Assembly (NCBI GenBank): GCA_036784855.1
Contig: JAZDSV010000036.1
Coordinates: 28,501 to 92,500, forward strand
Direction: 5' to 3'
DNA: 64,000 nucleotides
Source: Aphelidium insulamus
Taxonomy: Eukaryota > Aphelidiomycota > Aphelidea > Aphelidiaceae
Shown here: piece after piece, positions 23,694-51,085 of the stretch
Layout of the letters: every line of letters begins with the position of its first letter
How positions within the stretch are numbered: position 1 is the first letter of the stretch
Notes under the pieces: generated by a model
Seen by the model: the letters and a program-made list of their open reading frames with translations, nothing else
Database searches by the model: none
What the model was told of the DNA's origin: nothing
Program-made: the position numbers and the translations under genes

Positions 23694-23700
23694 TGATTGG
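23694..23700 (-). promoter_or_regulatory. CCAAT-type box of ankyrin copy C
   Basis: TGATTGG on the plus strand, 74 bp before ATG 23620; same element and spacing as for copy B. Confidence 0.45.
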
Positions 23701-23812
23701 CGGATCGTATATCGCATCTGAGCACAGGACGATATGTTAATTTGCACTCTTCCACACCGCTACGAATGAAGGCAACTGAAACATCTTTATTGCACCTTGC
23801 AAGCTTGTAGTG

Positions 23813-27014: not shown

Positions 27015-27581
27015 ATGCAGTTCACGTACCACGCGCTCTTTGCCGCCGCGCTGACGGCCACCTGTGCCCTGGCAGACTGTCTGGACCTGTCCACCACGTC
27101 GGCGTGCACCGGAGTGAAACTGATGGTGCCCAAGGTGGACATTGCGAGCGATGGCGCCACATTCGACGCCGCGTTCAAGCTGAATTTCGGCGACCGCTGC
27201 GGTGGCAAGCTGGCACTGAGCAGCAGCGCGGGTCCGGCACGTACCGCCGCCTGTTTCCGCATAGCGCAGCAGCTGGTCTTCTCCGCCAACGTGTCCAACG
27301 TGTTCGGTGCCAACGTGGACGTCTCGTGCGCGTCCCCCGCCGACCAGTACACGCTGTGCAAGCCCGCCTGCGAGGCCATCTACACCGGCATCATGACGGA
27401 GGTGGCGGCCAACTGCAACTCGACGGACGCGGCGCGCATCTCCACCGGGTTCGATCCGACGGCACAGTGTGCATCCGCGCCCACCACCGACTGCTCCAAC
27501 CACGCTGCCTCATCATTCCAGCTGTCTGGTGCTGTGATGCTTACAGCCTTACTTGTCAGCACCGCGTCGCTGCTTCTGTAA
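27015..27581 (+). CDS. Cysteine-rich secreted protein, probably GPI-anchored
   Basis: 188 residues, no intron. The N-terminal signal peptide is MQFTYHALFAAALTATCALA. The C-terminus is a small-residue site (NHAASS) followed by a hydrophobic tail SGAVMLTALLVSTASLLL with nothing after it, the classic GPI-attachment layout. About nine cysteines are spread through the mature part, suggesting disulfides. No domain was recognised. If GPI-anchored it would be a cell-surface protein and a substrate of the pathway that includes the SMP3/PIGZ enzyme coded at 6.7-8.8 kb. GC-rich codon use differs from the AT-richer array genes that follow. Confidence 0.75.
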   Translation: MQFTYHALFAAALTATCALADCLDLSTTSACTGVKLMVPKVDIASDGATFDAAFKLNFGDRCGGKLALSSSAGPARTAACFRIAQQLVFSANVSNVFGANVDVSCASPADQYTLCKPACEAIYTGIMTEVAANCNSTDAARISTGFDPTAQCASAPTTDCSNHAASSFQLSGAVMLTALLVSTASLLL

Positions 27582-27764: not shown

Positions 27765-29139
27765 TCAAACTTTATTGTGAGTCCGTTGGTTGACCTGCGT
27801 TGGACAGAGCGCTGCAATGATGGCAAGATCGTCTGCTGAAAACACATCCAAGCGCAAGCGTCGGCACAAATTCGCGATGAAGTTTTTCGCATGGTTTGAT
27901 TTCAGCGCATCAACCACAACTTGCAGGATGCGGCCAGATTTGGCCGCGTACAACAAGTGGCGCCAGTCATCCGCCTTCTCGCCCTGCATTGACATGGCAA
28001 TCGCACGCAACTCCGGTGACACCATCCGCAGCAGGTTCCGTGCAATAAATGATTTGAGCGGTGGTCTGCGGCGTGCAATACTCTTCAGGAACTCAAAGTG
28101 GGCGATAAATTGCCGCTTCGAACTATCGCTTATCGCCGTACTTGGCGCGTGCCGATTGTAGAAAGTGAAGACGGCGCTGATAATTTCGCCTTGCGTCAGC
28201 CACGAGTTGAGCCATAGATCTTTCAAGCACTCGACACTGTTGGCATCCGTGAGCGCTGATGATATTAGGTGCAGATCGCTCTGTTGAACATGTGTTATCT
28301 ACAGCGACACAATAGTACAACAGCACTTCTATACGCACCATCTTGTTGCGATCTTTATGCGATAATACGGATATCTCAATAACATTGTCCGTAAAACACT
28401 GCTTGTAAAAGTTCTGCACAGAGTCGCGTCTGTCCAGCAGCGGGATGGCGGCATGGGCAATCACCGCGGCCACGTTCGGTAGCTGATAGTGCAGTGCATC
28501 GCGACACAACTGCCCCAGAAACGGGACGATCTGCGCGTCTAGTTCTCCGCAGTCGGACACCACCTGCAGCCGCGGAACAATGGGGTAGCTCGTGTGCAGG
28601 TAGAGTTGTACCAGGACTTGTTTCGCATACTCCATGGCTCCTGGATCCACTTCGGAATCGGCGGAAGCGATCGGGTTCCAGCGATAAATGGGGGCGTTAG
28701 TGTTGTCGTCAACCAGTGACACAAATTGCTGATAGTACTGGGGCGGTGTAGCAAACGGTTGCGTTGTATCCATTGGCACTGCATACATCGCCGGTCCGTG
28801 CATTGTCGGTACATCTGATGGCGGCGGGAAAGTTGGCGGTACTTGTATTTGCGGTGCAAACACTGGCGCTGCATACGGTGGAGGTACGTACATAATCGGT
28901 ACGTACATTGTCGGCGGATAAGTTGGCGGTACTTGCATTGGCGGCGCTCCCATTGGATGTGCATACGTTGGCGGTGCCAACATTGGATGTGGCGCTGCAC
29001 CTATTGGCGCGAGCCACGGACCCGACTGCGGCTCCTGATAGTACTGGGCAGCATTGCCAACCGCCATGCCATGCGCGACATGCCACAACGCGTTTGTCAT
29101 CAGCGACGCGGCCAGAATCTTTTTGACCATTTTCTGCAT
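27765..29139 (-). CDS. YRWxP-family secreted protein 1 (C-terminally truncated)
   Basis: Family I do not recognise. Two exons, 29139-28339 and 28298-27765, join in phase 0 (40-nt intron) to 444 residues. Residues 4-24 form a signal peptide (KKILAASLMTNALWHVAHG), nearly identical to gene 2. A Pro/Tyr/Met-rich stretch follows with PPTYPP units. The N-module has IYRWNPIAS, IVPRLQVVSDC and HAAIPLLDRR. The C-module starts LWLNSWLTQGEI and keeps IARRRPPLKSFIARNLL, NLCRRLRLDVF and ALCPTQV. It then stops, about 100 residues before its relatives, so it lacks the WLCDRL and LSCAADK cysteine blocks. It is either a shortened functional variant or an early pseudogene. It shares strand and layout with nine downstream paralogues; its closest is gene 2. 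Confidence 0.75.
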
Positions 29140-29351
29140 TCAGTAAAAGAAAAATCGCCGACCCCCTGTTGCCTTGGCTGATTCGCTTCTTGGTTGACTC
29201 GGCTGACAGTAGTGTGATAGTAGATAGTGACAATAGTGTGTGAGTAGATAGTGCTATGTCAGGCGCATTATCGTTGCCTTGTTGAGGACATTTGATACAA
29301 ATTTATTTATATATTTATAGTATACATATATGTATTCCTTTCGTAGCGTAC

Positions 29352-29829
29352 CGCCGCCGTGGTCCAAGTGGTTAAGTTACTACACGGTGGCGGCCAGCAG
29401 CTAGAGTTCGATCCCCGGAGTGTGTTGTGCCGGTTTTTCGAATTTTACTGCGTTGTTGTGCCGCCAGATTTTTCGGGGTGTCAGTTTCGGTCATTCAACA
29501 CGTTGCGGTTGCGGTTTCGGTTTCCTTCAGATATTCGGTGCTTCGGTTTCGGCTCTCTCAAGTGTCAGCGTCAGAGGCGTCGCGGTAAAGGTCCGCCCCG
29601 TCCAGCTCCATTACAACAACAACAACACTAATCACATCTACTGTTACGACTCGCCAAGAACAATCACAACACTGCGCGCCAACAATTGATCACGCCCCGA
29701 CTGTGCGCCTGTCAATGTTCGGTGGTTTACTCCGTATGGGGTCCATCATACCTGTGTGCCGATTGTGTGTCCGAACACTATAACGTCATGACCGACCGGT
29801 TAGATACGTTTAATGAATAAATCAATCAA
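29352..29829 (+). mobile_element. tRNA-derived SINE with target-site duplications
   Basis: A 478-bp element flanked by perfect 13-bp repeats TTTCGTAGCGTAC at 29339-29351 and 29830-29842. The head carries a box A (TGGTCCAAGTGG, 29360-29371) and box B (GAGTTCGATCCCC, 29404-29416) at tRNA-like spacing, but the T-arm does not pair, so it is not a working tRNA gene. The body is unrelated to tRNA. The tail ends AATGAATAAATCAATCAA. A second, partial copy lies at about 57.0 kb. It sits between genes 1 and 2 of the secreted array. Confidence 0.82.
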
Positions 29830-29842
29830 TTTCGTAGCGTAC

Positions 29843-30277
29843 GTAGAACTTTGCAAGAATTTGCCAAACAATGGATGTTGACCCAGGCTCAGCCGGGATG
29901 ATGCAATGAGTGCAAGTGATGAGTGCAAGGCGATGGTACCGATGTATTCATTTGATATCTGATGGATGACTTGGCAAGCATATATATAAGTATATATATG
30001 TGTATATATATAGTGTATATATAAGTATTTACATGAGCGGAGGTTGCCATAATCGATCCACTACATATGTACTGCAGGTGAGGCAACGAATTGCAACCAT
30101 AAGAACCACTCATATGCCTCACAGTTGTACTCGTCGTGGGCGTACCACTGCTAATTGTGTTAATATTTACGCCTGCGTTCTGCTCGGGGTGTGTTTGAAC
30201 AAAAAAGTTCGATAAAAAGTTCGATAAAAAGTATAAAAGGTATTATTAAATAGATCTCTTCGTGCTAAAGTAGTCTC
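29843..30277. other. Intergenic, AT-rich with short repeats
   Basis: Holds TA-rich runs (29978-30027) and a two-fold AGTTCGATAAAA repeat near 30205-30232, just after the stop of array gene 2. No gene seen. Confidence 0.5.
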
Positions 30278-32230
30278 CTACTTTGAGATAGCATCCAGTA
30301 CTCGAGTCCAAAATTCCTTCAGGTCAACTTGTTCAGCGTCGCCGACAGTGACGGACGACTCTCGCTTGTCTGCAGCGCATGCCAGTATGTTTGCGGCCAC
30401 GCGGTTCAGCGCACTCCAGTTCAAGTCGCGGCGTGATTGTCGACGAAGCATTAGTGAAACAAACTTGCGGAACTGGGCGGATTCTGCCTTGTGTAGTAAG
30501 CGGTCGCAGAGCGGTTTGGATTGTTCAGAGTCGGCTGTCGGTAATTCGCCTCCTGGGATCAGCGTGTCGAGTGTTTCGAGTTGAATGTTGCCAGTCAACT
30601 GGGTGACCTGCTTCGGACACATTTCTGCTATAATGACTAGATGTTCGTCGGAAAACATTTGTAATCGCAAATGCAGGCACACATCCTTGATAAATGACTT
30701 GCTTTTCTTCAATTTCAGCGCATTAACCGCAACGTCTAGCTTGCTGCCAGGTAAGCCCTTGGCCGCGTACAGCAAGTGACGCCCATCGTCAGCGCTCTCG
30801 CACTGGATTGACATGCCAACTACACGTACCGCCGGGGACACCATCTTTAGCAAGTTCTTTGCAATAAACGTTTTGAGCGATGGTCTGCGGCGCGCAATAC
30901 TCTTCAGGAACTTGAAGTTGTCGGCGAATTGTTGTTCCGAAATAGCAACCGTCGGCGTTTGCGCTTGTTGATTGTAGTAGTGGAAAAATGCGCCGACAAA
31001 TTCGGCTTGAGACAGCCACGAGTTGAACCACATGTTTTTCAACAATTCGACACTGTTTTCCCCCGTCAAGTCAGCAGATATACCGTCTAGATTGTGCTAC
31101 GGTACGTGTTATTTGCAGGGACACAATACTTGAATACTCACCGCCTTATTTTTATCCATGGCGTCATACACGGATTTTGCGTTAATGCTGCCGGCAAAAC
31201 ACTGCATGTAAAAGAGCTGCACGAATTCGCGTCTGTCCAGCAGCGGGATGGCGGCATGGGCAATCACTTCGGCCACGTCCCACAGTTTATATTCAAGTGC
31301 ATCGCGGCACAACTGGCCCAGAAACGGGACAATCTGCGCGTCCAGTTCGTCGCAGTCGGACCACACCTGTAGCCGCGGAACAATGGGGTACCTCGTGTGC
31401 AGGTAGAGATGCACCAGTAATTGTTTCGCGTACTCCATGGCATGTTGATCAACTACCGAGTCGGGAAAAGTAAAGGGGTACCAGCGATATACGGGGACGT
31501 TGTCGCGCTCGTCAACCAGCGACGAAATTTGTTGGTAGTGATGGGACGGTGTTGCGGATGGTTGCTGTGCTTCCGTTGTCGGTACGTGAATTGGCGGTAC
31601 GTGTATCGTTGGCCCGTGCATTTCCTGTGCGAACTCTGGAGCTGCATACGGTGGCTGTGGGAACATTGGCGGTACATCCATGGTCTGTACGTGTATTTGC
31701 GGCGGATGAGTCGGTGGTACGTGCATTTGCGGCGGGTAAGTTGGTGGTACGTGCATTTGCGGCGGTGGGTAACGCGGCGCGGCATATGCTGGCTGTGCAA
31801 ACACTGGCGGTGCGCCCGTTGTCGACACGTGCATCTTCGGTACGTGCATTTGCGGCGGGTAAGTTGGTGGTACGTGCATTTGCGGCGGTGGGTAACGCGG
31901 CGCGGCATATGCTGGCTGTGCAAACACTGGCGGTGCGCCCGTTGTCGACACGTGCATCTTCGGTACGTGCATTAGCGGCGGGTAAGTTGGCGGTCCGTAC
32001 GGTGGCCGTGCAAACACTGGCGCGGCGTGTGGTGGCGCAGCATACGGTGGTTGTGCTAACATTGGATGCGGCACTGGAAATATTGGCGCTGGCCACGGGC
32101 CCCGCTGCGGCTCCTGATAGTACTGGGCAGCATTGCCAACATCCATGCCATGCGCGACATGCCACAGCGCGTTCGTCAAGAGCGACGCGGCGAGAATCTT
32201 TTTGACCATTTCGTTGTTCTGAACACCCAT
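30278..32230 (-). CDS. YRWxP-family secreted protein 2 (expanded Pro/Tyr-rich region)
   Basis: Exons 32230-31142 and 31096-30278, phase-0 intron of 45 nt, 635 residues, the longest of the array. A downstream ATG at 32209 starts the signal peptide directly (VKKILAASLLTNALWHVAHG) and may be the true start. Residues 60-220 are low-complexity Pro/Tyr/Met sequence with MHVPPTYPP units, including an exact 41-residue tandem duplication. The N-module follows (VYRWYPFTF, IVPRLQVWSDC, HAAIPLLDRR). The C-module has WFNSWLSQAEF, IARRRPSLKTFI, four cysteine blocks (DVCLHL, EMCPKQ, LCDRLL, LACAADK) and the FWTRVLDA end. Complete and apparently functional. Role unknown; the signal peptide and cysteines indicate secretion. 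Confidence 0.8.
31728..31973 (-). repeat. Two exact 123-bp tandem units in array gene 2
   Basis: The blocks 31728-31850 and 31851-31973 are the same sequence, coding a 41-residue unit with VFAQPAYAAPRYPPP and MHVPPTYPP. The multiple-of-three period keeps the frame. Identity points to recent slippage or unequal crossing-over. Confidence 0.9.
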
Positions 32231-32372
32231 TCAAGCGGAGGGCACGGCAGACAGGCTCGACAAAGTGCGCAGCAGACGGTACCGCCGGTACCACCGCCAG
32301 TAGCGGTTGTGATCGCTATACCGCACCCTGAACAGTAGCACTGTCTTACCAACTCGTGAACGGCGTCGTTCC

Positions 32373-32767
32373 CTAAGCACTTGCCACAGCAATCATACGC
32401 ATGTCGGGCGATGAAAGTTGGAGAAATTTCGTTGTGATATATGCTCTAAGCGTCTCTCTGCGACGCGCAATGTCCATCAAGAATCCGCAATGTCGGAACG
32501 CCCTTCCCGAAGCGCATTGCCGTACATATCACCCAGCAAAGGCACGATATATTTGTCCAAATTGGTGCAATCAGAGACAATTTGCAGCCGCGGGATCACC
32601 CGATAATTCATGCGGAAATAGACATCCTGGAGGAACTGTTGCGCGTACTCCATGGCCTCTAAATGCACTTCAAATGTGCTTGATGCAAATCGCTGTGTGT
32701 ACCGAGCGATAAACTCTGCAGAGATGTGTATACGGATGTCAAATAGCGATACAAATTGCCCATGCAC
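32373..32767 (-). pseudogene. YRWxP-family relic
   Basis: A short remnant of an eleventh copy. 32767-32477 keeps the N-module (FVSLFD, YRVIPRLQIVSDCTNLDKYI, PLLGDMYGNAL), though the YRWYPIASS block has decayed to RYTQRFASS. In an overlapping frame, 32490-32373 keeps a piece of the C-module (FLMDIARRRETLRAYI and LQLSSPDMR). The intron and everything between has been deleted. No signal peptide is left. The remaining 220 bases up to 33000 may hold more decayed sequence. Confidence 0.75.
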
Positions 32768-33000
32768 GGATCACCTTGGATCATTGCCTCGGCGGCAGCG
32801 CGTATTGCCTACCGGAGGTGCAGGATTGACACAAACTGTATACATCGGCACACATCGCCGAGCATTGCATGGAGACAGACCACTCGGTCGCGTTCCCATG
32901 AGAGAAGCTTGGGCATGCGATGCCGAGCGCCCAGTCAAGACGGTGCAGCGCTTGACCGCGTATCAACTAGCGGGCGACGAAATGCATGATTTTGTCTGCT

Positions 33001-33534
33001 AAAAGTGTGAAATTCGGGTTAGGGTTACTGTGGTTGATACCGGAATTGTATCAAATAAATATTATGGTCCACCAGCGTAAAATTCAAACGACATAGAGCT
33101 TTAGTCTCAAAGTGATTGCAATACAGTTCTACTTGTAATAGCAGTAAACCGCCAAGATGTACTTTATTGATGTACTTCTATGCAGTTACTTCCTTGCTAT
33201 TTCGGCTAGTACTTTGTTGACGGTTGATCAGCAAACGAAATCACCGTGAAGCGTGGTCTATTGATGTATTGATGTGGTATATGATGCGTCACATTGTTGC
33301 GGCACAATCAGTTTTTAGTTGTTGAAACATCATGAGGTACAAACTGGATCACAATGTGGTTTTTTGGACATGGACATGCCAAATCTTGTAAAATCTGGGA
33401 TTTTCTGGACTGCCATCAGTTAAAATCTAAATTAACACATATTTGTTGATGACGGCATGAAGTCTATTGCGTACATGTATGTATATTGTTTTGCGTTGTC
33501 GGTGAGCCCCGCTTCGTTCCACTTCTTGAAGTCA
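33001..33534. other. Intergenic, no gene seen
   Basis: About 530 AT-rich bases downstream of array gene 3. Two telomere-like TTAGGG-type units occur near 33015-33027, too few to mean anything. No frame supported. Confidence 0.5.
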
Positions 33535-35027
33535 CTACGACCAGGCCACAAGTACTCGAGTCCAAAACTGCTTCAGATCGAGCTTTCCATGGTTGGCAAC
33601 AGTGATGACCCACTCCTGCTTGTTCGCGGCACAAGACAAAATGTTTTCGGCAATACGGTGCAGTGCACTCCCGTTATCGTCCGGGGTCATCCGCCCACGA
33701 ATACCCCGCGGCATTCGGGCACGAAACTCGGCCGTTTTGGCCGCAAACAGCAAGCGGCTGCACAGCCACGCGTTATTCGTCATGGTTGCTAGTGATCCGT
33801 CTCGTGGAAGTAGTCCGTCAATAATGTGCAATGGAATTGGCGTCAGCACGTCGCGACTGATATTTTGCCGGTAAACCCTGTCTGGGCAAACTGTTGCAAT
33901 GATGAGGACATCTTCAGTTGTAAACCCTTTAAATCTAAGAGCTTCGCATACGGGCTTGACGAATTGTGCTGCAGATGGCATTCTCAATGCATCCACCACA
34001 TCTGTCAGAATGTTTTGTGCAATATCTTTGGCCCGGTACAACAAGTAGCACCAATCTTTGGGTGTCTCTCCTTGCAGCGCAATACCGATTGATCGCAACT
34101 CGGATGACGCCATTCTGAGCATTGCCATTCCAATATAAGTTTTAAGCGTCATTCGGCGCCGCGAAGTGCTCAGCAGAAATTGAAAACAGTTGGCGAAATG
34201 CTCAGTGGAGATAAATGCCTGGGATTTCACTCGCTGGTTAAAGAAGGCAAAAACGCTGTCCACAAATTCAGTCTGCGACAGATACGAATCGAAAAAAGCA
34301 GCCTGAAGTAATTCACCACTATTTGACCGCACGGCAATCAAATTGGCACGGCTCTCCTGGGAAAGTTTTAACTGGCACGAATCTAATAGTATAATACATA
34401 GTATATCACACATACCGCATTTACTTGCAACACAGCCGCATATAGCGGACCTGCAATCAATTCGGTGCCTGCATGCTGGAAATAAAAGTGCTTGATAGCT
34501 TCGTGGCTGTCAAGCAGAGGAACTGCGGCATGCGCAATCACCATGGCCAAGTCGCGGTGCAGTGCATTAAGCGCCACGCCGTAAATGTAGCCCAGAAACG
34601 AGACGATCTCTTTGTCCAAATTGGTGCAGTCCGACACGACCTGCAGCCGCGGGATCACCGGATAACTCGTATGGAAATAAAGCTGCACGAGGAACTGCTG
34701 TGCATAAATCATGGCATCTGGATCCACTTCAAATTTGCTTGACGCGATGGGGTACCAGCGATAAATCGGAGAATAGTCCCGGGTGTCAACTAGGAGCACA
34801 AATTGCCCATAGTGATCATCGGGCACAGGCGGCACGTAGTGCACGATCGAAGGTGGCGTGTGGGGATCGAATGCAAGAGGACCTACTTGCACCACTGCAG
34901 GCAGCACCGGCTCCATCACCGAGATCGCAGGATATACCATCGGTGGCATCCTATGTGGGAAACTGGGCACCATGCCGAGAGCGACGTGGTGCATCGTGTT
35001 AGCTGTGAGCAGCGCGCCGAGAAGCAT
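33535..35027 (-). CDS. YRWxP-family secreted protein 3
   Basis: Exons 35027-34416 and 34371-33535 join in phase 0 over a 44-nt intron; 482 residues. ATG 35027 begins the signal peptide MLLGALLTANTMHHVALG, shared in style with copies 4-6. The Pro-rich linker is short (about 60 residues). N-module: IYRWYPIASSKFEVDPDAM, QFLVQLYFHTSYPVIPRLQ, VVSDC, VIAHAAVPLLDS. C-module: FFDSYLSQTEF, RRRMTLKTYIGMAMLR, PVCEALRF, TVCPDRV, IIDGLLPRDGSLA, WLCSRLLFAAK, LSCAANK, FWTRVLVA. All four family cysteines of the C-module are present. No known domain. Confidence 0.8.
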
Positions 35028-35380
35028 TTGCTTGTCAGCGTCAGAATTGCGGCCCGTCAACCGTGAGGTACTGTGTTATAAACTTGGGTTTCGGTTAATC
35101 TTTTACGTCCTTGACAAAGTTGCCACAACAGAGTTTTCTGTTCCCTGATGTAGGCAGTGAGCCGCTCGTCCTGTTGTTCACCATAGACATTTGTGGCACG
35201 TACAAACAGCAAATGCAATCTTTACTCCGCTTGAACGTGTACATATGGTACGCACATGAAGTAGTACGACGATATTCAAGGTGGACGGATTTCGATATAT
35301 CGATATGAATGTGTTTTATATTATTTTTTTGTCCGTTTTGTCTAAGTGACCTGGTTCTATTGCTCTACTGGTTCTTTCTG
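35028..35380. other. Intergenic spacer between array genes 3 and 4
   Basis: About 350 bases, containing the promoter of gene 3 and the 3' flank of gene 4. The GGTTTCGGTTAATC near 35085 resembles GGTTTCGGTTGATC before gene 4 (about 37155), so neighbouring copies may share a promoter element. Confidence 0.4.
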
Positions 35381-37095
35381 CTAGTGTGACTGGGCGTTGA
35401 CCAAGCGCGCCCAACACTGCTTCAGATCAATTCGATTATCGTTGCCATCGGTGACGGACCAAACATCCTTGTCAGCAGCACATGCCAGAATGTTTTCGGC
35501 AACACGGTGCAGTGCACTCCAGTTGGAATTGCGGAATGTGCGCCCGTGATTAATACCCCGTGGAATGCGTCCTCGAAAATCAGCGGACTCGCCGGCACGA
35601 AGCAAACGGTCGCACAGCCATTTATTCTTGGCGCTGGTGGCTAAGGATCCGCCACGTGGAAGCAGACGGTCGATGACTCCAAGCTCAGCCGGAACAAATG
35701 CTTCCAGACTGACAGCCGACTGACGTTGAACCTTGTCGGGACAGATCGCAGCGACGATTAAAAGATGTTCCTCGGAAAATTGTTCCAATTTGAGATCTCG
35801 GCACACGGGCTTGACAAATTGAGAAGCAGACGGCCGACTCAGGACGTCCACGACAGTCAGCACTGCGTTCCCTTCCAAATGATTAGCCTTGTACAACAAA
35901 AGACCCCATTCCTTCGGCGTTTTTCCCATAATGGAAACGGCGATAGAGCGCAAATCAGGTGAAGAGAGCTGGAGTGATTTCTTTCGGATATACGATTTGA
36001 GTTCGGGTCGGCGCTGCGCTAAACTCAGCAGAAATTCAATGTTGCTGGCAAAATGTTGCTGGGACGCAACTGTCTGTGGACTGGATTGCCGCATAAAGTG
36101 CAAAAGTACAGCATAGACAAATTCGCTATGCGATAGCCACGAATTGTGCCATTCCTCTTGAAGCAGGTGAACACTGCTGCGCTGCGCCAGAAGTGCATTG
36201 ATGTTGTAGTAACCGAGCTGTAGACCGTAGTTAACGTTATGTCAGTAAACATGTATAGCCCTATGGTACGCACTGCATTTAGCCTCATCGTTTCTTGGTA
36301 TAGAGGTTTCGCGAGCTTCTCAAATATATCATGTTGGAGATAAAACCGCTCAATATCATCCATCCCCGTCAGAAGCGGGATGGCAGCGTGACCGAAAACC
36401 ATGGCCAAGTCAAGGCGCAGTGCCCGAAACGCCTCGCCGTACAAATGACCCAGAAACGGGATAATCTGCTCGTCCAAATTGTGGCAATCCGACACGATCT
36501 GCAGTCGCGGAATCACGACATTGTTGTGGTGGAAAAAGAGTTGCACGAGGAACTGTTGTGCCGACACCATGGCTTCTGCATCCACGGCAGCCTTGGGCGA
36601 TGCCACAGGGTACCAGCGATAAATCGGGATGTCGCCGCGGGGGTCAAGTAGCACCTGAAATTGAGGGTGGAATAAGGCCGGAATCACTGGCGGCGGCTGC
36701 GCGGGTGTCAACGGTTCGTAAGGAACGGATATTGCTTGTTCGTGGGGCCCGTTCGTTGGCTGTGCGGGCGGTGGTGGCATTGCGTAAGGCATGCTTATTG
36801 TCTGTGCATATGGCATTGACGGCGGTTGCACGTACGGTGGTTGTGAGAGTGGTGGCTGTGCGTAAGGCACGCTTATTGGCAGTGCATATGGCATTGATGG
36901 CGGTGGCACGTACGGCGGCTGTGTGTAGAGCGTGTATTGTGACGGTGCAAATGGCACGAACTCCGGTTGCGCGTACGGTGAAACGAAGGCCGGCTGCCCG
37001 TACTGCACCGTCGGCATGCCATAGGGGGAACTGGGCACCGTGCCGAGAGCGAGGCGGCATAGAATCGCTACCGTGAGCAGCGCGCCAAAAAACAT
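35381..37095 (-). CDS. YRWxP-family secreted protein 4
   Basis: Exons 37095-36274 and 36217-35381, phase-0 intron of 56 nt, 552 residues. Signal peptide MFFGALLTVAILCRLALG. Residues 22-150 are very rich in Pro, Tyr, Gln and Met (PYAQPP, PPSMPYA units), longer than in copies 3, 5 and 6. N-module: IYRWYPVASPKAAVDAEAM, VVIPRLQIVSDCHNLDEQI, FGHAAIPLLTG. C-module: WHNSWLSHSEF, LAQRRPELKSYIRKK, LQLSSPDLRSIAVSIMGK, PVCRDL, AICPDKVQRQSAVSLEAFV, VIDRLLPRGGSLA, WLCDRLLRAGES, LACAADKD. Complete. Closest relatives are copies 3, 5 and 6. Confidence 0.8.
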
Positions 37096-37435
37096 TTCTG
37101 GATATTTCCCTGACAACCGCGGGAACTACGCCGAGACGAAAAGTGAGTCATTTAGGGTTTCGGTTGATCATGTACCGTGGCCGTGCATCTTGGTTATATG
37201 TGTGGAAACGATGTGGAAATACGGCGGTGGCAATGTCATGCGATGCATAAAGCCACACCAATGTAGATTCCGCACAATGAAGTTGTCGACGATATTGAAG
37301 TTATGAAGGTACATCTACGTTCACATACGCAAGCCGGCAGACTGCTACGTCAACTCGAAATTTAATGTATGTTTCTATATGGTATTGCATGTCGATGTCG
37401 GTGGAGCCTTTGATCTTCCTTCTACTTCAAGTAGA
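37096..37435. other. Intergenic spacer between array genes 4 and 5
   Basis: About 340 bases, including the shared GGTTTCGGTTGATC-type stretch near 37155. No gene seen. Confidence 0.4.
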
Positions 37436-38927
37436 CTATGAGGAGGCGTCAAGTACTCGCGTCCAAAAGTCCTTCACTTCGAACAGCTTCTCGTTGTCAA
37501 CGGTGACGGACCGGAATTCCTTGTCAGCGGCACATGACAGAATGTTTTCGGCCACGCGGTGCAGTACACTCCAGTTTGGGTCGTGCGGAGTCTGTCGGCG
37601 TTTGCCTTGTGGCAGGTGTGCTCGAAACTCGGGCGACTCGGCGGCACACAACAAGCGGTCACACAACCATTTGTTCTGGGAGCTGTTTGCCAATGATCCG
37701 CCACGTGGAAGCAGCTTGTCAATGACTCGTAGCTCCGCCAGAACAAATGCTGTGTGACTTACAGCGGATTGACGTTGAACTTTGTCGGGACAGATTGCAG
37801 CGACGATGACAAGTTGATATTGGGAAAATTGATTCAAGCTGATGGCACTGCATACAGGCGTGACAAAAAGAGAAGCCGACGGCCTACGCAAGGCTTCCAC
37901 AACAGTTAGCAGTGCGTCTCGACCGAAACGATTAGCCTTGTAGAACAAGAGAAGCCAATCCTCCAGCGATTCGCCAAGCATAGAGACGGCTATAGAACGC
38001 AAGTCCGGTGACGTGAGCTGAAGAAATTTCTTCATGATAAACGATTTGAGACCTTGCCGGCGCCGTGCAATACTTTGCAAAAATCCAAAGTTGTCAGCGA
38101 AATACTTCTCCGAAACATGGACCCCTAGTCGTCGGTGTCGGTTGAAGAACGAAAACACGGCGTGAACAAATTCAGTCTGCGTCAGCCACGAGTTGAGCCA
38201 TGCCTCTTGCAACCGTGCGGCACCATCTTCCTTTGCCAACATTGAAAATATGTGTGTGCGGGCGAGCTAAACGTATATATCAACCAACCCAATGAATACT
38301 TCATACAAACACATATAGGAAACGTACAATGTTCAGCTGGGACGCAGCTTTGTATAGAGGTACCGCGAGAGCAAGGAATTTTTCATGCTGGAGATAAAAC
38401 CGCTTAATATCATCAATCCCATCCAGAAGTGGGATGGCAGCGTGGCCGAAAATTGCAGCCAAGTCGGATCGCTCTGAATAAAGTGCATCGCCGTACAGTT
38501 CGCCCAGCAAGTGCACAATCTGCTCGTCCAAAATGCTGCAATCCGAGATAATCTGCAGCCACGGAATCACGTAATTATTCGTGTGGAAATACAGTTGCAC
38601 GAGGAACTGCTTTGCTGACGCCATGGCTCCTGGATGCACCTCACCCTTGAGCGATGCAACGGGGTACCAACGGTAAATCGGAATGCCGTCGCGGGGATCA
38701 CGAAGTACCATAAATTGAGGGTGGAATAAGGCCGGCGGCTGCATGTGGGGAATGAATGTAGCCGGCGCGCGGTACACCGTTGTAGGCGCCGCGTACACGG
38801 GCAGTATCACAGAGCCTGCAGGATATGCCATCGGTTGTATCCCATAGGGGTTATAAGGGAAACTGGGCACCATGCCGAGAGCAAGGCACTGCAGCGTCGT
38901 AACCATGAAGAGCGCGCCGAGCAGCAT
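37436..38927 (-). CDS. YRWxP-family secreted protein 5
   Basis: Exons 38927-38328 and 38266-37436 join in phase 0 over a 61-nt intron (GTACGT start); 476 residues. Signal peptide MLLGALFMVTTLQCLALG, then a short Pro/Tyr linker. N-module: IYRWYPVASLKGEVHPGAM, YVIPWLQIISDC (Trp where others have Arg), FGHAAIPLLDG. C-module: WLNSWLTQTEFVHAVFSFFN, IARRRQGLKSFIMKK, LQLTSPDLRSIAVSMLGE, PVCSAI, AICPDKVQRQSAVSHTAFV, VIDKLLPRGGSLA, WLCDRLLCAAES, LSCAADKE, FWTRVLDASS. Complete, with all four C-module cysteines. Confidence 0.8.
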
Positions 38928-39258
38928 TTTGAATTTGCAGTTTTGTCACTGGTGGATATTCGGTTGAGGTCAACAGCAATTAAACAAATTAAACGATCAA
39001 CAGACCAGATTAAAAGTTCTCGTGAACAGAAGGCAAGTTGCTACATACATGGTGTCACGAAATCTTGTGATGCCGGAGGGTTTAAACAGATACTAGTATA
39101 GGTCATGGCAGAGCTTTGTGGCGCTGAATCTTAAACGGTGCTTTAGACAACACCTTGAAATGAAATGGTACACATTGAAGCAGTACATGCGGCCATATCA
39201 AGGAACAGGGATGATTACAATAATGCTCAATCAGCTCTTAGCAGATAGCGTATATATT
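38928..39258. other. Intergenic spacer between array genes 5 and 6
   Basis: About 330 bases. Nothing coding seen; it should hold the gene 5 promoter. Confidence 0.45.
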
Positions 39259-40743
39259 TTATTGGTTGTCGGTCAAACTTTCTCTTACCCATTTCCCTAC
39301 TCGTCGAAGGTCACTGTCAAGTACTCGCGTCCAAAAGTCCTTCAGATCAAGCTGTTGATTGTTGTCAACAATGACGTCCCAAACGTCCTTGTCCGCGGCA
39401 CATGACAGAATATTTTTGGCCACGCGGTGCAGTGCACTCCAATTCAACTCTCGGGGTGCCTGTGCGCGATTTTCCGGTGGCATTCGGGCACGGAACTTGG
39501 CCGACTCGGCGGCATACAGCAAGCGGTCGCATAACCATTTGTACGAGGTGTTGTCTGCCAGTGATCCGCCGCGCGGGAGCAGCCTGTCAATGACACGTAA
39601 CTGGGCCGGAACCAACGCTGCCAGGCTGACAGTGGATTGCCCTTGAACGTTATCGGGACAGACTGCCGCAACGATCACGAGATGGTCTTCGGAAAATTCT
39701 TTTGAGTTTAGTGCGCGACACACCGACTAGACAAACGGTCGAGTTGACGGCATGCTCAACGCATCGACAACAGTCAGCAGTGCGTTTGGTCCGAACTTAT
39801 TTGCCGTGTACAACAAGAGACGCCAATCTTCCGGCGTCTCTCCCAGCATTGTCACAGCGATGTAGCGCAAGTCGGGTGACGTGAGCTGCAGAAATTTCTT
39901 TCTGATATAAGATTTGAGCGTAGGCCGTCGCTGTGCAATACGCATCAGGAATCCAAAGCTGCTGGCAAAATGCCGCTCCGAAACACGGACCCTTAACTTC
40001 ACTTGCCTGTTGAAGAACGAAAACACGGCGTGAACAAATTCAGGCTGCGATAGCCACGAGTTGAGCCATCCCTCTTGCAAATGTGTGCCTCCGTTGTCTT
40101 GCGCCAGTATTGCAAACATGTTTGTGCGAGCGAGCTACACGCAGCTGTTAAATGGCGGCCTAGTATATTATTGAATTTATCAAGAGAAACGTACAATGTG
40201 CAGCTGTTCAGCTGTTTTGTATAGCGGCGCCGCCAGCATATGGAAGCTTTCGTGCTGCATATAAAAGCGCTTGATCGCTTCATCGCGGTCCAGGAGCGTG
40301 ATGACGGCGTGGCCAATAACCGCGGCCAAGTCAAGGCGAAGATGGAGGAGGGCATTGCCGTACATGCGACCCAGAAACGGGACAATCTGCTGGTCTAACT
40401 CGCTGCAATCAGACACCACCTGCAGCCGAGGGATCGGCGGATAACTTGTGTGGAAATAGAGCTGCACGAGAAACTGCTCTGCAAAAGCCATGGCATCCTC
40501 GTCCACTTTGCATTCACTCGATGCAATGGGGTACCAGCTATAAATCGGAGAGTTGTCGCGGGGATCAAGGAGTGTCACGAATTGCGCGTAGTGATGGTGC
40601 GGGATTACTTGTGGCGGCTGTGCGTAAACTACCGGCGCCATTGGGTTAGCCGACATTGGCATTGACGGGATTCCATAACTGGGCACCATGCCGCGAGCGA
40701 GGTGGCACATAATTTTCGTCGCGAGCAGTGTTGCGAAAAGCAT
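39259..40743 (-). pseudogene. YRWxP-family secreted protein 6, one nonsense codon
   Basis: Exons 40743-40195 and 40134-39259 (60-nt intron with the same GTACGT start as copy 5). Signal peptide MLFATLLATKIMCHLARG, then a very short linker. N-module has IYSWYPIASSECKVD (Ser for Arg in the YRW motif), PIPRLQVVSDC and IGHAVITLLDR. The C-module is complete (WLNSWLSQPEF, LQLTSPDLRYIAVTMLGE, AVCPDNVQGQSTVS, VIDRLLPRGGSLA, WLCDRLLYAAES, LSCAADKD, FWTRVLDS). The exception is a TAG at 39729-39727 inside FV-stop-SVCR, where copies 3-5 read FVKPVC or FVTPVC. One base change (AAG to TAG) would explain it. Either a very young pseudogene, a polymorphism or readthrough. Confidence 0.8.
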
Positions 40744-40946
40744 TTTTGGATTTATGCTGGCGTGGGAAAATCTGATCTGAGTAATGCATTTGACGAGCTG
40801 TCAAATGCATAACTCATATTGATGATTGATTTCACAACAAAATTAAACGGCTGACTTTATTTACTACCAAGTTCCACTACTTTATTATCGGCTACCATTG
40901 AGTTTTGCGGCAGTTCGGTCTTGGATGGGTTGGGTTTGAGACACAA

Positions 40947-42781
40947 TTAATCTAACCCATCAATCTCTGAGATTAAAGCCAGCCCACGCTGAGCCCTAGT
41001 AAGGACTTTAGCCCATATCTTCTTTACTGATAAGGTTTTCCCATATATCGAAACGTGCCAGGTTTTCTTGTCGATTCGAGCAGCACACTGCAAGATTCCA
41101 TTACACAGTCGTGCTACAGCCGACCAAATCAGCTTCGAGTGTTGATTATCAGTGCTTCGATTGTCTGGCAGGTCCTGTTTTATGCGATCAATAAATGTTG
41201 TCGACTGTGCAGCGTGTACCAAGCGATTGCACAACCATTTGTCGTCTTTGATGTGCACAATTGTTTGCGGTATCAACCTGTCAATGACTCGGAGGTCAAC
41301 GTTGACTAAAACTGCTTCGTCCAACACACCCCGAACCTTGTGCGGGCATATTAACGATAGTATGAGCTGATGTTCCGTCGAGACGGCATCGAACCTAATG
41401 TAACGGCAGGCATGAGCAATTATGGAATCTTTAGATGGCAGCAACAGCAGGGTGTCCACCACACTCAGCATTGCGTCGACCGTAGTCCGTTTGCTGGCCG
41501 CATCAATCAGTCGCAGCCAGTCCTGACGACTCTCTCCCAGTTTGCGAATGGCAATAACACGTAGCGGCGGCGCTCGCAACGCAAGGGATGCGATTCGAAT
41601 GTTCAATCGGAGATACATTCGTTGCCGCGCACAATCGAGTAAATAATCAAAGTTTTGCGCAAAGTGAATTTGCGACTCTTTGCTCTGGCCAGCATCGGGA
41701 TCCATCTGGTAGAATTCGAAAAAGGTTTTGTAAAATTCGTAATGCGTCAACACGAGTCCAGGCCAGACTTGACGCAATGGCACCTCAGCGCTGCCCTTGC
41801 GCAATGCTGCGTTCAATTGGGTGTACGATTGCTGCACAGAATGTGTTAGTGGACATTATGTTGTCAGTGAAGACAGTGACGTACCTCTTTGTCGCCCATT
41901 GCGGAGTTGTAAAGAGTTGTTGCAAATGACGTCCGGCCCATAGGCGCAAAGTACAAATTTTTAACAGCATATTCTGTAATCAGCAGCGGTATCACGGCAC
42001 GAGCAAACACATCGGCAAGATCAAGGCGCCCATTGTTAAGAGCATCGCAGTACATTTCCGACATGAACTCTGCAATTCGCTTGTCTAGAGCTTCACAGCT
42101 GGATTCAATCTGCAGGCGCGGGGGTATATCAACTTGGTGGTAGTAAATGTGCCTGATGTACTCTTGACCAATAACCATTGCACCCTCGTGCACTCTGGCG
42201 TCCTCTGATGCGATAGGGCGCCAGTGGTACACCTTGGCACCATTTTCGCGGAAAAATACTTCAAACTGCGCTAACGCTTCGTCCATATCTGGCATCGTGG
42301 CGGTAATATATGGAGTCGCAGGCTCGGCGTTCGAAATCATAGTTGGTGGGTCCATCACTGGAAACTCGTTCACACCCGGCATCCATGAGTACGGCACAGG
42401 CTGATCTGGCATGAATTGTACCGTATTCTGCTGAGATGGCATCGTGTTCATATCTGGCAGATATGGGCCAGCGCCAAATGACGGATGAGGTTGATGTTGC
42501 ATCTCTGCCCCGCCACCATATAGCAATGCGTTTGGTGCCATGTCAAAGTGATATGGCGCCACATAAGAGGGATGAGGTGGATGCTGCATCGCTACCCCGC
42601 CACCGCGGTGAAACGCGTGCATATCCTGTGGATACGGCCCCGTACTAACTTGATACGGCGCCTCGTACGACGGATGAGATGGATATGACACCTCTGGCTC
42701 CGGTTCTTGGCGGCCATGCACATCCATGGAAACGACGACGCGCCATTGCCCGGCGGCGGCAAGCAGCGCAGCGAAAATCAT
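40947..42781 (-). CDS. YRWxP-family secreted protein 7
   Basis: Exons 42781-41885 and 41831-40947 join in phase 0 over a 53-nt intron; 593 residues. ATG 42781 starts the signal peptide MIFAALLAAAGQWRVVVSM. The linker (about 140 residues) has His/Pro/Tyr units such as MQHPPHPSYVAPY and MQHQPHPSFGAGPY. N-module: VYHWRPIASEDARVHEGAM, IPPRLQIESSCEALDKRI, FARAVIPLL. C-module: VWPGLVLTHYEF, CARQRMYLRLNIR, HACRYI, LICPHKVRG, VIDRLIPQ, WLCNRLVHAAQS, LQCAAR, KIWAKVL. All four C-module cysteines are present. With copy 8 it forms a separate branch (RWRP/HWRP, RHxYY). Confidence 0.78.
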
Positions 42782-42965
42782 TTTCGGTCTTTTTTTTTCT
42801 TGCACGCGCAGTCAGGGGTAACTGGCACGATGTCGGCTTGGACGGATTTTTGGCTACGGAGAACCGCTTTGCATTCTGTGAAACATCTAGACACGATCCC
42901 GAATTAATAATTCGATAATCTCGCTTATTCATACTTATTATATAATAATAATCTTTTATTTTAAA

Positions 42966-44670
42966 TTAGGATCGACGTTTTGGTATCGCTTGACTGCGCA
43001 ATATCTCCGTACTTGCAGCTGCATTGACACGCGTCCAAAAATCTTTCAGGTCCATCACTTCCCCACCGATATCGGCCCGCCAACCATTCCTGCGATCCGG
43101 AGCGCATGTCAAGATTCCTTCCGTCACTCGATAAAGTGCGGCAAAGTCGTAGCATCCCCCATTTGCGCTCCGGTCACCGGTCAGCAACGGTTCCATGCGG
43201 TGGACAAATGTCTTTGATGCCGCGGCATGCAACAAACGATCGCAGAGCCACGTGTCTCGACTGGCGTCAACGCCACCTTGAGGTATCAATCGGTCAATCA
43301 GCCGTAATTCAGCGCTAAAAAAAACTCGTGGACCCAGCAATCCGTGAACTTTTTGTGGGCATATTGATGACAGAATTAGTTGATGCTCTTCCGAGAACCT
43401 GGGAAATATAACAGCATGACACACATGTTCAAGAACCAAATCGTTGAATGGCAGCGCAGTCAGCGTGTTCACGACCTTCAACATTTCATCGGGAGTAATC
43501 ATTTTCCCAGCGGCATATATCAGCCGTGCCCATTCTTCTGGAGACTCGCCAAGTATTTGGATAGCCATTGTGCTATAGTAATGGAGCTTCAGTGATCGCT
43601 TTCTAATATGCGCTCGAAGTGGCATTCGTTGCTTTGCACAGTCGAGCAGCTCTTGAAAGTATCGACCAAACTGCAGTCGTGATTCCGGATTGGAGCCGAC
43701 ACTAGCGTCCAAGTCAAAGTAGCTCATTAACGAGTCGACAAACTCGTTTTGCGAAAATACCAGCCAAGGCCAGACTTGGCGCAGCGATTCCCCGCTAGCC
43801 AATGCAGCACTAAACCTATTGTACGAAGTCTGCACACAGGGCCACGGTAAGGGTGGTAAAAAGATTGTAGCAATTATAAATACATATACTTGCCTGCTTA
43901 TCACCCATGGCGGCATGATAAATTGTCTCTGCAAATGCGTTCATCTCCACATCTTGAAAATAAAAGCTTCTAATAGTCCCCTCTGTTTCCAACAATGGTA
44001 TTGCGGCGCGAGCAAACACGTCGGCCATGTCTAGGCGTTTGCCACGAAGAGCGTTGCCGTATAATGCGGCCAAAAATGAAATGATCTGCTTGTCGAGATA
44101 TTCGCTGGTGGACTCGACTTGTAGTATGGGAAGCGACGCGTGATTAACTTCGTAGTAGAGATGCCGAATAAACTTCAGTCCAGTTGACAGAGCATTCATG
44201 TCCACTCTGCCGTCGCTGAACAGGATGGGGCGCCATCGATACACCGTCGTGGTACCCTTGCCGTCGTACAATATGGTAAACTGCGCCGATACTGCGCTCA
44301 TAGATGGCATCACGTGCGATGGATTCATCACAGGATAAATCATTGCAGGGACCACAGGTGCGTGCGGCATCGCAGTGGGAACGGGCGGCACAAAGCCCTG
44401 GTAATAGTGGCCGGGCACAAATTGCATCGTGTTCGGTTGCGGGGGCATCGCGCTCATGCTTTGCGGATATGAGCCAGGTTGCGCGTGATATGGCATCCCG
44501 CACGGAGGAGGTGGATGCTGCATCTCAGTCCCGCTGCCATATGTGGTTGGCGCCAAGTACGGATGAGGTGGATATCCCCCAACTATGCCCGGTTGTCCAT
44601 TCCCGTACATGAACATACAGTGGGCGAGGCGCCATTCAAAGTTGGCGGCAAGCAGCGCGACGAAAATCAT
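42966..44670 (-). CDS. YRWxP-family secreted protein 8 (GC-AG intron)
   Basis: Exons 44670-43894 and 43829-42966, 546 residues. The 64-nt intron begins GCAAGT after CAG, a GC-AG splice site; every other copy has GT at this same phase-0 position. Signal peptide MIFVALLAANFEWRLAHC. The linker is Pro/Tyr/Met-rich (MQHPPPP, YPPHPY). N-module: VYRWRPILFSDGRVDMNAL, SLPILQVESTSEYLDKQI (Cys replaced by Ser), FARAAIPLLET. C-module: VWPWLVFSQNEF, CAKQRMPLRAHIRKR, HVCHAVIF, SICPQKVHG, LIDRLIPQGG, WLCDRLLHAAAS, LTCAPDR, FWTRVNAA. Nearest relative is copy 7. Confidence 0.78.
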
Positions 44671-44801
44671 TTTTGGTGTTTTTTGTTTTAAAGAGGCGGT
44701 TTACCCCTAGAAATTAAATATTGGATTTATATGCTCCGTCTGCAATACAGATTATGCATTTTTTTGTTCTGTGCCCAAAAGTTTTATCTAACCTAATTGC
44801 T

Positions 44802-46179
44802 TCAATATTGGGCAACAGCACTCCAAAACGCCGTGTCGTTACTATCAAGAGCCGGTGAACAGGACAAGATACTCTGTGCCACGTGGACAGCCATGCTTGA
44901 AAAGTCGGCATTTTGTTCTGTTCCAGACAAGTATTGCTGAATGCGCTGCTGGAATTGAGCATCCTTGGCCGCAGATATCAGATTTCTGCAGATCCACGAG
45001 TCGTGATCATAGCCGGTGTACTGTTGCAACAATTGATTGATGGCTGATAGCGGCGCTTCATAAAAAGCTCCAAAGGCATCGACTTGATCCGGGCAGGCCG
45101 TGTGAAGCAGTAGATGCTGAGCGAGACTATACTTATTTAAGTTGACGAGAATGCACACGGTTTCACGAGCAGGCGACGCGGTCAAGGCATCTACTGCAGT
45201 TGCAAATGGCTCCTGGCCTGCCAACCTTGCTGCATCCAGCAGGTGAATCCATTCGTCGTTATTACTAGTGATCATGGCAATGAACACTTTGCGCAGCTCC
45301 TCGCACTTTACTGCGATAAAGTGTGCCGTGATTAGTCGTCGGAACGGCTTACGGAATGCAGCAACAGTGAGCAAGAATCTCACATTGTTGCGGAAATGAT
45401 GCTTTGCAATCTCCATTGGCACTGTGCAATCTTGGTTAAAATAGTCGAATACCGTCATTGCGAGATCTTCTTGCGTCAAGCCATATTTTCTGCAGCTTTG
45501 CAACACTGTTCAATTGCTGCAATGCCGATTGCACATCGGTGACAGCATTCTATGTAAACAGTGCATGGAATTAGTTTATCCAAAAGGGCACGGGTGACCC
45601 CGTTCTCACCTCGGCTCTGCGCCTAGCGTCGGTATATAGCAGATCGGTCAGTGGCCGGGAATTTGCATTGCATCGCCGATAGAAAGCTAGTGCTTTATCA
45701 TTGGTGGGCTGTAGTGACATTGCGGCGCGACCAAACTCCTCTGCCAGATCATATCGATCTGTCTCCAGCGAATAGCAAAGCCATTGAGACAAGAATTCTA
45801 GAATGCGAACGTCCAGTTCTCGGCTATTGGAATGTACTTGCAATCGTGCTACCTCTCGACGCCACGAGTCGAAATACATGTACTTCAAACATCGCTGTGC
45901 AGCGCCTAGTACAATGTTATCTGCGTCTATATCACCCGTATAAACTGGGCGCCAGCGGTAAATAAGCGCGTTGAGTTGGTCGCGATACTCCTGGAATTGA
46001 TCGATGGATTGCCAACAATCGGGGTGCACGGTGACCAGTGGCGGGTAAGTCAATGCTGGGGCGTACGGGAATGACGAATAAGCAGAAGGTTGATGTCCAT
46101 ATGTCCACGGGTGAGGCATATTCATGCCATATGCAAAAACAGCTCCCCCAGCGACGAGAACAAGCGCGGATGCCAACAT
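44802..46179 (-). pseudogene. YRWxP-family secreted protein 9, frameshifted
   Basis: Exon 1 46179-45610 and exon 2 from 45549 (59-nt intron). Signal peptide MLASALVLVAGGAVFAYG. The linker is short, then CWQSIDQFQEYRDQLNALIYRWRPVYTGDI-type sequence, shared with copy 10. After the splice the reading runs ALQQLNSVAKLQKIWL and then falls out of frame near 45485; the rest (LTQEDLAMTVFDYFNQ, TVCILV, TACPDQV, WICRNLISAAK, LSCSPALD, AFWSAVAQ) continues in another frame to 44802. Compared with copy 10, about 11 bases are missing between TGGCTTGA and CGCAAG. Both halves are otherwise intact, so the loss is recent. A CCAAT-type box remains upstream. Confidence 0.72.
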
Positions 46180-46224
46180 TTCGGGGAAAAAACGAAAAAT
46201 GAAGGTTGCTTGAAGCGCGCAGGT

Positions 46225-46231
46225 TGATTGG
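46225..46231 (-). promoter_or_regulatory. CCAAT-type box of array gene 9
   Basis: TGATTGG, followed by CC, 46 bp before ATG 46179. The sequence is the same as before ankyrin copies B and C and array gene 10. Confidence 0.45.
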
Positions 46232-46522
46232 CCGACATTTCTCCTGTCGTGCCCCTCTGGCTGACACATGTTACTGATATACTTTGACCGTTTATCAAGC
46301 AGTGCTGGCACAAGTTATGTCAAATGCATAGGAAAAATTCTTCTCTTTGACGCGACAGACCGCGTCAAGCTGCACTTAGTGAGTCATGTGAAGCAGCATA
46401 AAGTTTTATCTGATTTTTACGCAGGTGACTCGAAGTTGTTAAGTGATCATTGTCTTGCTTATTCTTACATATTACATTGCAGTTGGAGATGTCTATTAAG
46501 GAATGTCCGACAACTTTCAGGC

Positions 46523-47948
46523 TTAGCTGCTTGAATCCGGAGCGAGAACTCCACGCCAAAACGCTTCGTCCTTGTTATCAAGAGCCGGCGAACAGGACAA
46601 AATACTCTGTGCCACACGGACAACTATGCTTGAATAGCCGGTAGACAAGGATGACTGAATCCGTTGCTGGAATAAAACGTCCTTGGCCGCGGATATCAGC
46701 TTTCTGCAGATCCACGAATCGTGATCATAGCTGGTGTATTGTAGCAATACATGATCGATCACTGATAGTGGAGCTTCACAGATGTTTTGATCACCTACAA
46801 GGGTCTCGACTAGATCCGGGCAGGCCTTGTGCAACAACAAATTATAATCGAGTGCGTTCTTGTTGCATTTGAGCGCATTTGTTGCATTCGAGTTGCATTT
46901 GTAGTTGATGCTCATGCACACGGATTTGCGATCAGGCGACTGTGACAAGAGATCTACCACAGTAGTAAATGGTTCGTAGCCAGCTTCTCTCGCCGCACTA
47001 AGCAGGCGAACCCATTCTTGTTGGTCAACAGCCATCATGGAGATGAACACTTTGCGTAGCTCCTTGCATGGAACGGCTATGAACTTCTGTTTAATTAGCC
47101 GTAGGAGTGAATTGCGATTAGCAGCAACGGAGAGCAGGAAGTGAACATTGCGGTAGAAATGGAGTTTCGCATTTTCCAATGTCAGAGCACGATCTACGCT
47201 GAAATAGTCAAACACAGCAGTTACAAGATCTGCTTGCGGCAACGAGGAATCAAGCCAGAGTTCTGTGAGTGCCTCAACGCTGTTGTCAAGTTGCAGCAAT
47301 GCGTATTGCACTTTCGTCTTGGCATCCTATACAGCAAGGATTAATTAATAGAGATATCAACAGAGCTGGATCAATTCTTACCTTAGCCCTTTGTTCAGCG
47401 CGCACATAAAGCTGATTAATTCCCACTGATGTGGCGATCGGGTTGAACTGAATGTAGAAATAGCGCACTTTGTTGATGTTGATCATTAATGGAGCTACGG
47501 CACGGCCAAACACTTCTGCAAGATCACCACGATTCGCTTCCAGCGAGACGTGATACAATTCAGCCAGGATTTTCTGCAACATCACATCCAGATCGTAACT
47601 GCTTGATTCAATTTGCAACTGCGCCAGCTCTTGGCGCCACGAACGGAAATACATGTAATACAGGCATCGCTGTGCAGCGCCCAGTACCATGTTATCTGCG
47701 TCTATATTACCGGTATAAATGGGGCGCCAACGGTAAATCAGAGTGTTGCGTTGGTCGCGGATCTCCTGAAATTGGTGGATGGATTGCCAACAATCGTGCT
47801 GTACGGTGACCGCGTAATTAAATCCTGCGCCATCAGCGGACACAATATATACGGGTGGTTGATGTCCTTCAATCTCCGGCCGAGGCAAATTCATGCCTGA
47901 TGCAAGTACAACTCCCGCGGTGGCAAGAACAAACGTAGATGCCAACAT
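46523..47948 (-). CDS. YRWxP-family secreted protein 10
   Basis: Exons 47948-47382 and 47326-46523, phase-0 intron of 55 nt, 456 residues. ATG 47948 starts the signal peptide MLASTFVLATAGVVLASG; the upstream in-frame codons are not needed. It lacks a real Pro-rich stretch, having only about 30 residues before CWQSIHQFQ. N-module: LIYRWRPIYTGNIDADNM, QLQIESSSYDLDVML, FGRAVAPLM. C-module: LWLDSSLPQADLVTAVFDYF, KFIAVPCKELRKVFISMM, SVCMSI, KACPDLV, VIDHVLLQYT, WICRKLISAAKD, LSCSPALD, AFWRGVL. A short Asn/Lys-rich insertion (NYKCNSNATNALKCNKN) sits after SVC, absent from copy 9. Complete and apparently functional. Confidence 0.78.
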
Positions 47949-48000
47949 GGATGTACGATCAGAAACGTGATCGATTAATTGTAGCTTGCAGCTCGGAGGT

Positions 48001-48007
48001 TGATTGG
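48001..48007 (-). promoter_or_regulatory. CCAAT-type box of array gene 10
   Basis: TGATTGG, followed by CC, 53 bp before ATG 47948, matching the box before array gene 9. Confidence 0.45.
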
Positions 48008-48026
48008 CCTGGACTGCTCCTGACAA

Positions 48027-50759: not shown

Positions 50760-51085
50760 TTAAATATTCGAATATCATTATGTTATTTATGATGTGGACG
50801 GATATTGAATATTTATGTAGCTCCTTGCTGTAGTGTACAGAGCTGCTGGCTGTTCCACAAGAAAGCTTCTGGCTGCTGCCACATTTTGCCTTGCTTGCAG
50901 TTGGCAACGTTATATTCAGCTATCTGGGTTCGATGACATATTTGACAACAGCTATGTACATGACAAGATATGTAAGCTATTCAGAGCGTATAGAATTCTG
51001 AGGCCATACCGGATATTATTCGTGGAAGCAGACGGAGTGAACAACAGCCATCATCACTGTTTCAGAGCCAGCGAGCCAAGCCGAT
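50760..51085. other. Intergenic, no gene seen
   Basis: About 325 bases between two plus-strand genes; no repeat or reading frame worth calling. Confidence 0.5.

Follow-up and report, generated by a model that had tools for sequence, protein, structure and literature searches.

Ten consecutive genes on the minus strand, g1 to g10, form a tandem array at positions 27765-48026 of the window, by which we mean the whole stretch of 64,000 nucleotides analysed here (C104:28501-92500; the genome measures 18.0 Mb and has 169 contigs). All ten follow a common plan: exon 1 provides a hydrophobic start that resembles a signal peptide, a linker rich in Pro and Tyr, and an N-module, and exon 2, beyond a phase-0 intron, provides a C-module. 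The explanation that we favour, with somewhat better than even confidence, is that the genes belong to a lineage-restricted family which evolves by birth and death and whose products would be secreted binding proteins stabilised by disulfides, probably acting as effectors or surface factors. It builds on the structure of the genes, the number of copies, the purifying selection, the cysteines that never vary and the structure models. Going further, and more tentatively, neither the family formed by the two modules nor, perhaps, the fold of the N-module would have a described relative; the family members would be secreted, disulfide-stitched binders meeting the host of a probably parasitic zoosporic fungus, and would change through gene birth-and-death and minisatellite variation of linker length.

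An earlier reading of the letters of the window (the sequence-only reading) had described ten consecutive minus-strand genes of one plan at these positions, and this description holds. The N-module measures 133-136 residues in 10/10 array genes, and an intron of 45-64 nucleotides is in phase 0 at both exon edges in all of them, with GT donors in nine and a GC donor in g8. The splice sites were computed or set by eye from genomic sequence rather than from transcripts; those of g4, g6 and g9 were set by eye at the common position, that of g5 is a lower-ranked candidate, and the introns of g1 and g3 have alternative acceptors. The ten loci are confirmed, but as genes only 7/10 are intact as assembled (g1, g6 and g9 are broken), and g2 and g3 are separated by a dead copy. 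No common motif was found in the 350 bp 5' of the array genes, where the best 7- to 10-mers stay within plain shuffles.

Between these elements, the linker varies from 29 to 202 residues. In g2 and g4 it contains coding minisatellites, tandem repeats with periods of 30, 78 and 123 bp; because all these periods are multiples of three, such in-frame repeats are, as far as the sequence tells, a simple route to a change in linker length. The linker is also rich in Pro (12-31%) and Tyr (4-11%), a composition suited to proteins with a structural or adhesive task in the fungal wall, the cyst or the coat of the zoospore, in which the tail would anchor or cross-link the protein and the modules would face outward, with no need for a host. 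Exon 1 of g1 weakly matches the Pfam family Extensin_1 (E=1.1e-4, with 22.5 bits where the cut-off is 105), and flagellar genes imply a zoospore stage. However, the linker is the least conserved part of the proteins, shrinking to 29-36 residues in g6, g9 and g10 and to almost nothing in a copy on contig C88, and the many broken copies would be less typical of structural wall proteins, so that we consider such a role unlikely.

Four cysteines of the C-module are invariant (16/16, 16/16, 15/15 and 15/15 aligned C-modules) and span ~107 residues of this helical module. Four copies stand outside the alignment: two broken ones have all four cysteines, a partial one has the first two, and the dead fragment between g2 and g3 was left out of the count. 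Their invariance, the single line of evidence on this point, suggests that the four cysteines probably form two disulfide bonds.

As the sequence-only reading had proposed, the folds were predicted and compared by structure search, which yielded confident models and no significant match. The AlphaFold2 model of the g3 N-module (predicted local distance difference test, pLDDT, 90.2) shows an alpha/beta-plus-helices arrangement, and that of the g4 C-module (pLDDT 87.7) is all-helical, with consecutive helices in a solenoid-like succession. Foldseek found no significant fold match for either module, and a comparison of the C-module with a viral structure library gave no match at E<=0.001. The arrangement of the N-module may be new, missing matches being no proof of novelty, and no homology was seen between the two modules (hhalign probability 0.13%). 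The consecutive helices of the C-module recall HEAT/ARM alpha-solenoids, and by descent this module could stem from solenoids already known, whether HEAT/ARM-like or, as in the neighbouring genes, ankyrin in a degenerate form, with its similarity eroded; such an origin is compatible with any role. Pfam showed no HEAT, ARM or ankyrin match at E<=1 in the exon products of the ten array genes (with g6 searched piecewise and exon 2 of g9 from behind the frameshift only) and of four members elsewhere, while ankyrin-repeat neighbours of the array do match; we regard such a descent as somewhat unlikely.

The absence of a known family with this architecture, also claimed by the sequence-only reading, withstood profile searches. 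No family reached the curated cut-off in Pfam for the same exon products or in NCBIfam for eight members, and PDB sequences gave no match to the family. DUF2336, YcaO_C, Extensin_1, A20R, amidoligase, YbhQ, CotJB, MBL_Geo_Pelo and others were rejected as below cut-off or unsupported by other members. Among 5.8 billion proteins, the C-module profile and the spliced full-length profile found nothing, with ~8000 candidates scored for each; this empty result is weak, because a control query, the neighbouring O-fucosyltransferase-like protein, retrieved just 3 homologues and showed that this set holds few proteins from relatives of this organism. The g5 C-module, run once against viral contigs, revealed no relative, and a YRWxP, YRWYP, YRWRP or YRW motif or domain was not found in the open-licence PMC papers searched. 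Tandem, diverged and apparently secreted paralogues would equally fit factors of self/non-self or mating-type recognition, or proteins secreted against competing microbes. However, no toxin, lectin or enzyme family reached the cut-off in Pfam or NCBIfam and no evidence is specific to this explanation, which appears very unlikely.

Across the genome, array included, the family comprises at least 20 copies, spread over five contigs in seven places. Judged by open exons, 13 of them look intact and seven are broken; these counts are lower bounds, since only the best candidates were scored. The searches used two C-modules, one exon 1 and one N-module as queries, followed by local profile hidden Markov models on the loci found. 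When one C-module was compared with the whole genome, its top match other than itself was a further gene of the array (E=5.2e-113). A match at C139:412 kb (E=3.6e-4) belongs to an RRM protein (RRM_1 E=7.8e-56) and was taken as a low-complexity false positive. A phase-0 intron candidate occupies the common position in 6/6 further loci examined, under a scoring that favoured phase 0; a phase-1 candidate ties in C97a, and other candidates score equal or higher in C97c and in the copies on C139 and C85.

The motifs by which the N-module had been recognised, YRWxP, IPRLQ and IPLL, proved looser than claimed. Y-x-W-x-P is present in 10/10 array N-modules, the exact YRWxP in 8/10 (g6 has YSW and g7 YHW), the LQ of IPRLQ is invariant among them and the literal IPLL occurs in 6/10. 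Genome-wide, in an alignment of 17 N-modules that leaves out three broken copies, YRWxP is found in 10/17 and its tryptophan in 17/17. YRWxP was rejected as a signature of the whole family, since it is often lost outside the array and marks the array rather than all members. A DNA pattern for YRWxP matched the genome six times, against four matches for the reversed control. Four of the six fall in the array, the others on C91 and C118; these last two, with best profile E values of 0.014 (a 54-residue open reading frame) and 2.2, were taken as chance.

Both modules are under purifying selection. Across nine array gene pairs (Nei-Gojobori; the g6 stop codon skipped and g9 used after its frameshift), the ratio of nonsynonymous to synonymous substitution rates (dN/dS) is 0.21-0.51 for the N-module, 0.27-0.43 for the C-module and, over short alignments, 0.41-1.06 for leader and linker, values that are rough because dS exceeds 1 for several pairs and synonymous sites are near saturation. 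Trees built from 17 N-modules and 16 C-modules recovered most of the similarity groups that the sequence-only reading had seen along the DNA. Genes g1 and g2 group at 100/100 in both trees and g9 and g10 at 95/97 (N tree) and 99/99 (C tree), while g7 and g8 group at 99/99 in the C tree and are joined by the copy at 114 kb in the N tree (83/88). An exclusive g3-g6 group is unsupported, as the N tree places g1 and g2 in one clade with g3-g6 (96/98) and the C tree pairs only g5 and g6 within it. The three pairs agree with the growth by local duplication that had been proposed; growth was not only local, one copy on the same contig being 38 kb distant and others lying in five further places. The best reading is that the family grows and decays by birth-and-death via tandem duplication. 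Repeated multiplication and decay of this sort is common among genes that face a host or prey.

In the mechanism that we favour, a signal peptide would send the protein out of the fungal cell, and its cleavage would leave a flexible tail, rich in Pro and Tyr and widely differing in length, followed by the compact N-module and by the solenoid-like C-module, which two disulfide bonds between the invariant cysteines would hold together. Outside the fungal cell the protein would bind partner molecules, as a candidate effector or a cell-surface factor directed towards host or prey; such contact is plausible. Secretion is inferred from the conserved N-termini: by eye, all ten array genes start with a short hydrophobic stretch ending, just before the linker, in a small-x-small site (A-x-G in eight, A-x-C in g8 and V-x-S in g7). 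Also counted in favour are ankyrin-repeat neighbours, three of them with signal-like N-termini, and the second tandem cluster on C97 (316-324 kb).

Several observations weigh against this explanation. The secretion claimed by the sequence-only reading keeps its conserved N-termini, but a hydrophobicity threshold reached by 9/10 array genes is also reached by 41/104 open reading frames of the window and alone does not discriminate; the N-termini of g1 and g2 are weakly hydrophobic, and signal peptides were judged by eye. RxLR, LFLAK-type, YxSLxK and [YFW]xC-near-start motifs are absent from leader and linker of the ten array genes. The single R-x-L-R (RALR) among the ten exon-1 products belongs to the N-module of g4 (residue 224), and none of these products has an LxLFLAK-type (Crinkler, CRN) N-terminus. 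Module dN/dS values below ~0.5 show that the modules are constrained and, at the level measured, give no hint of arms-race selection. The broken copies could be assembly errors, sequencing error being possible for g6 and g9.

The genome encodes an eEF1A with the insertion GEFEAGISKDGQ, which we take to be opisthokont-specific. Chitin-synthase-2 is matched twenty times, counted exon by exon (best E=8e-235); this family also matches in 4/14 control genomes, all bacterial, so that weak matches mean little. Matches to the flagellar IFT46 and radial-spoke proteins occur in this genome and in no control genome. Together, the eEF1A of opisthokont type and the matches to chitin synthases and flagellar proteins suggest that the genome is that of a zoosporic fungus. 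Synchytrium endobioticum is not supported as the source, since the RAYHxxVFE motif has no match in the genome. The C-terminal region of eEF1A was also noted in two near-identical versions ~23 kb apart in opposite orientation, at C2:115700-116002 (+) and 139058-139360 (-).

Five ankyrin-repeat genes share the window with the array, and weak relatives of the third occur on C85, C51, C82 and C5. ATPase-like open reading frames lie at 52619-53536 and 57376-61308 (+), with AAA-type matches below cut-off at 52619-53536 and 59113-61308; they remind us of Crinkler-type or mobile-element ATPases, and the reading frame ahead of the second has, by eye, a zinc-knuckle-like stretch with Arg where CCHC has His. 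A Cys-rich protein with hydrophobic ends (27015-27581, +), without a Pfam family at cut-off, adjoins the low-coordinate edge of the array and is, by eye, possibly a glycosylphosphatidylinositol-anchored surface protein. Other flanking genes are of ordinary kinds and match NopRA1, Alg9-like mannosyltransferase, PRMT C-domain, importin-13-like repeat and short-chain dehydrogenase above the Pfam cut-off, and O-fucosyltransferase below it.

Table 1. Array genes, other family copies and ankyrin-repeat neighbours (window positions unless a contig is given).
Feature	Position	Strand	Remarks
g1	27765..29130	-	intron 28281-28338; C-module truncated, exon 2 ~170 residues
g2	30278..32209	-	intron 31097-31141; intact; linker repeats of 30 bp and 123 bp at 31687-31998
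dead copy between g2 and g3	~32217..32767	-	fragments of both modules in several frames, interrupted by stops
g3	33535..35027	-	intron 34357-34415; intact; N-module modelled
g4	35381..37095	-	intron 36218-36273; intact; 78-bp linker repeat 36771-36923; C-module modelled
g5	37436..38927	-	intron 38267-38327; intact
g6	39259..40743	-	intron 40135-40194; in-frame TAG 39727-39729 in C-module
g7	40947..42781	-	intron 41832-41884; intact
g8	42966..44670	-	GC-AG intron 43830-43893; intact
g9	44802..46179	-	intron 45550-45609; frameshift early in exon 2, ~45489-45510
g10	46523..47948	-	intron 47327-47381; intact
array with dead copy	27765-48026 (C104)	-	eleven copies
family copy	C104:114-116 kb		has stop
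second tandem cluster	C97:316-324 kb		four copies, one broken
family copy	C97:570 kb		apparently frameshifted in exon 1
family copy	C139:282 kb		one copy
family copy	C85:261 kb		one copy
family copy	C88:80 kb		one divergent copy
ankyrin-repeat gene 1	9965-11056	+	signal-like N-terminus by eye
ankyrin-repeat gene 2	14865-16217	+	Pfam
ankyrin-repeat gene 3	~20737-22148	-	repeats 20740-21111; signal-like N-terminus by eye; part at 21117-22181 without Pfam match
ankyrin-repeat gene 4	~22114-23755	-	signal-like N-terminus by eye
ankyrin-repeat gene 5	51041-52543	+	Pfam

The molecular contact of zoosporic fungi with their hosts or prey is poorly known. If the favoured explanation is true, the genes described here would contribute an effector-like family in which the gene plan is clear, each module has a confident model and ~20 natural variants exist, so that secretion, disulfide pairing and partner binding become testable.

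Oomycete RXLR-WY/LWY effectors are built from a signal peptide, a disordered variable stretch and then helical modules. The plan of the array genes is alike, but these lack RxLR in leader and linker and have invariant cysteines. The AvrSen1-like or RAYH candidate effectors of the chytrid Synchytrium endobioticum are secreted and species-specific and share with the array family a conserved gene architecture including intron-exon boundaries, a helical core with a diversified periphery and one short signature motif; they number 75 and 148 copies in two isolates, against ~20 here (PMC6572847, PMC12503489). The array family differs by its two modules and invariant cysteines. A degenerate DNA pattern for RAYHxxVFE, allowing no mismatches, had 0 matches in the whole genome, and RAYH occurs in 0/17 N-modules and 0/16 C-modules. 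For plasmodiophorids, PMC12503489 describes secreted ankyrin-repeat proteins as expanded repeat-type binding scaffolds; ankyrin genes beside the array are the point of likeness, and the opisthokont-type eEF1A of the array genome sets it apart. In the Albugo CCG effectors, four conserved cysteines were shown to form disulfides that hold the fold (PMC12503489). The four cysteines are alike, but the lineage is another, and CCG modules consist of two parallel helices joined to a sheet (PMC12503489). Tandem, lineage-specific secreted families are a known kind, and the array family appears to be a new one among them.

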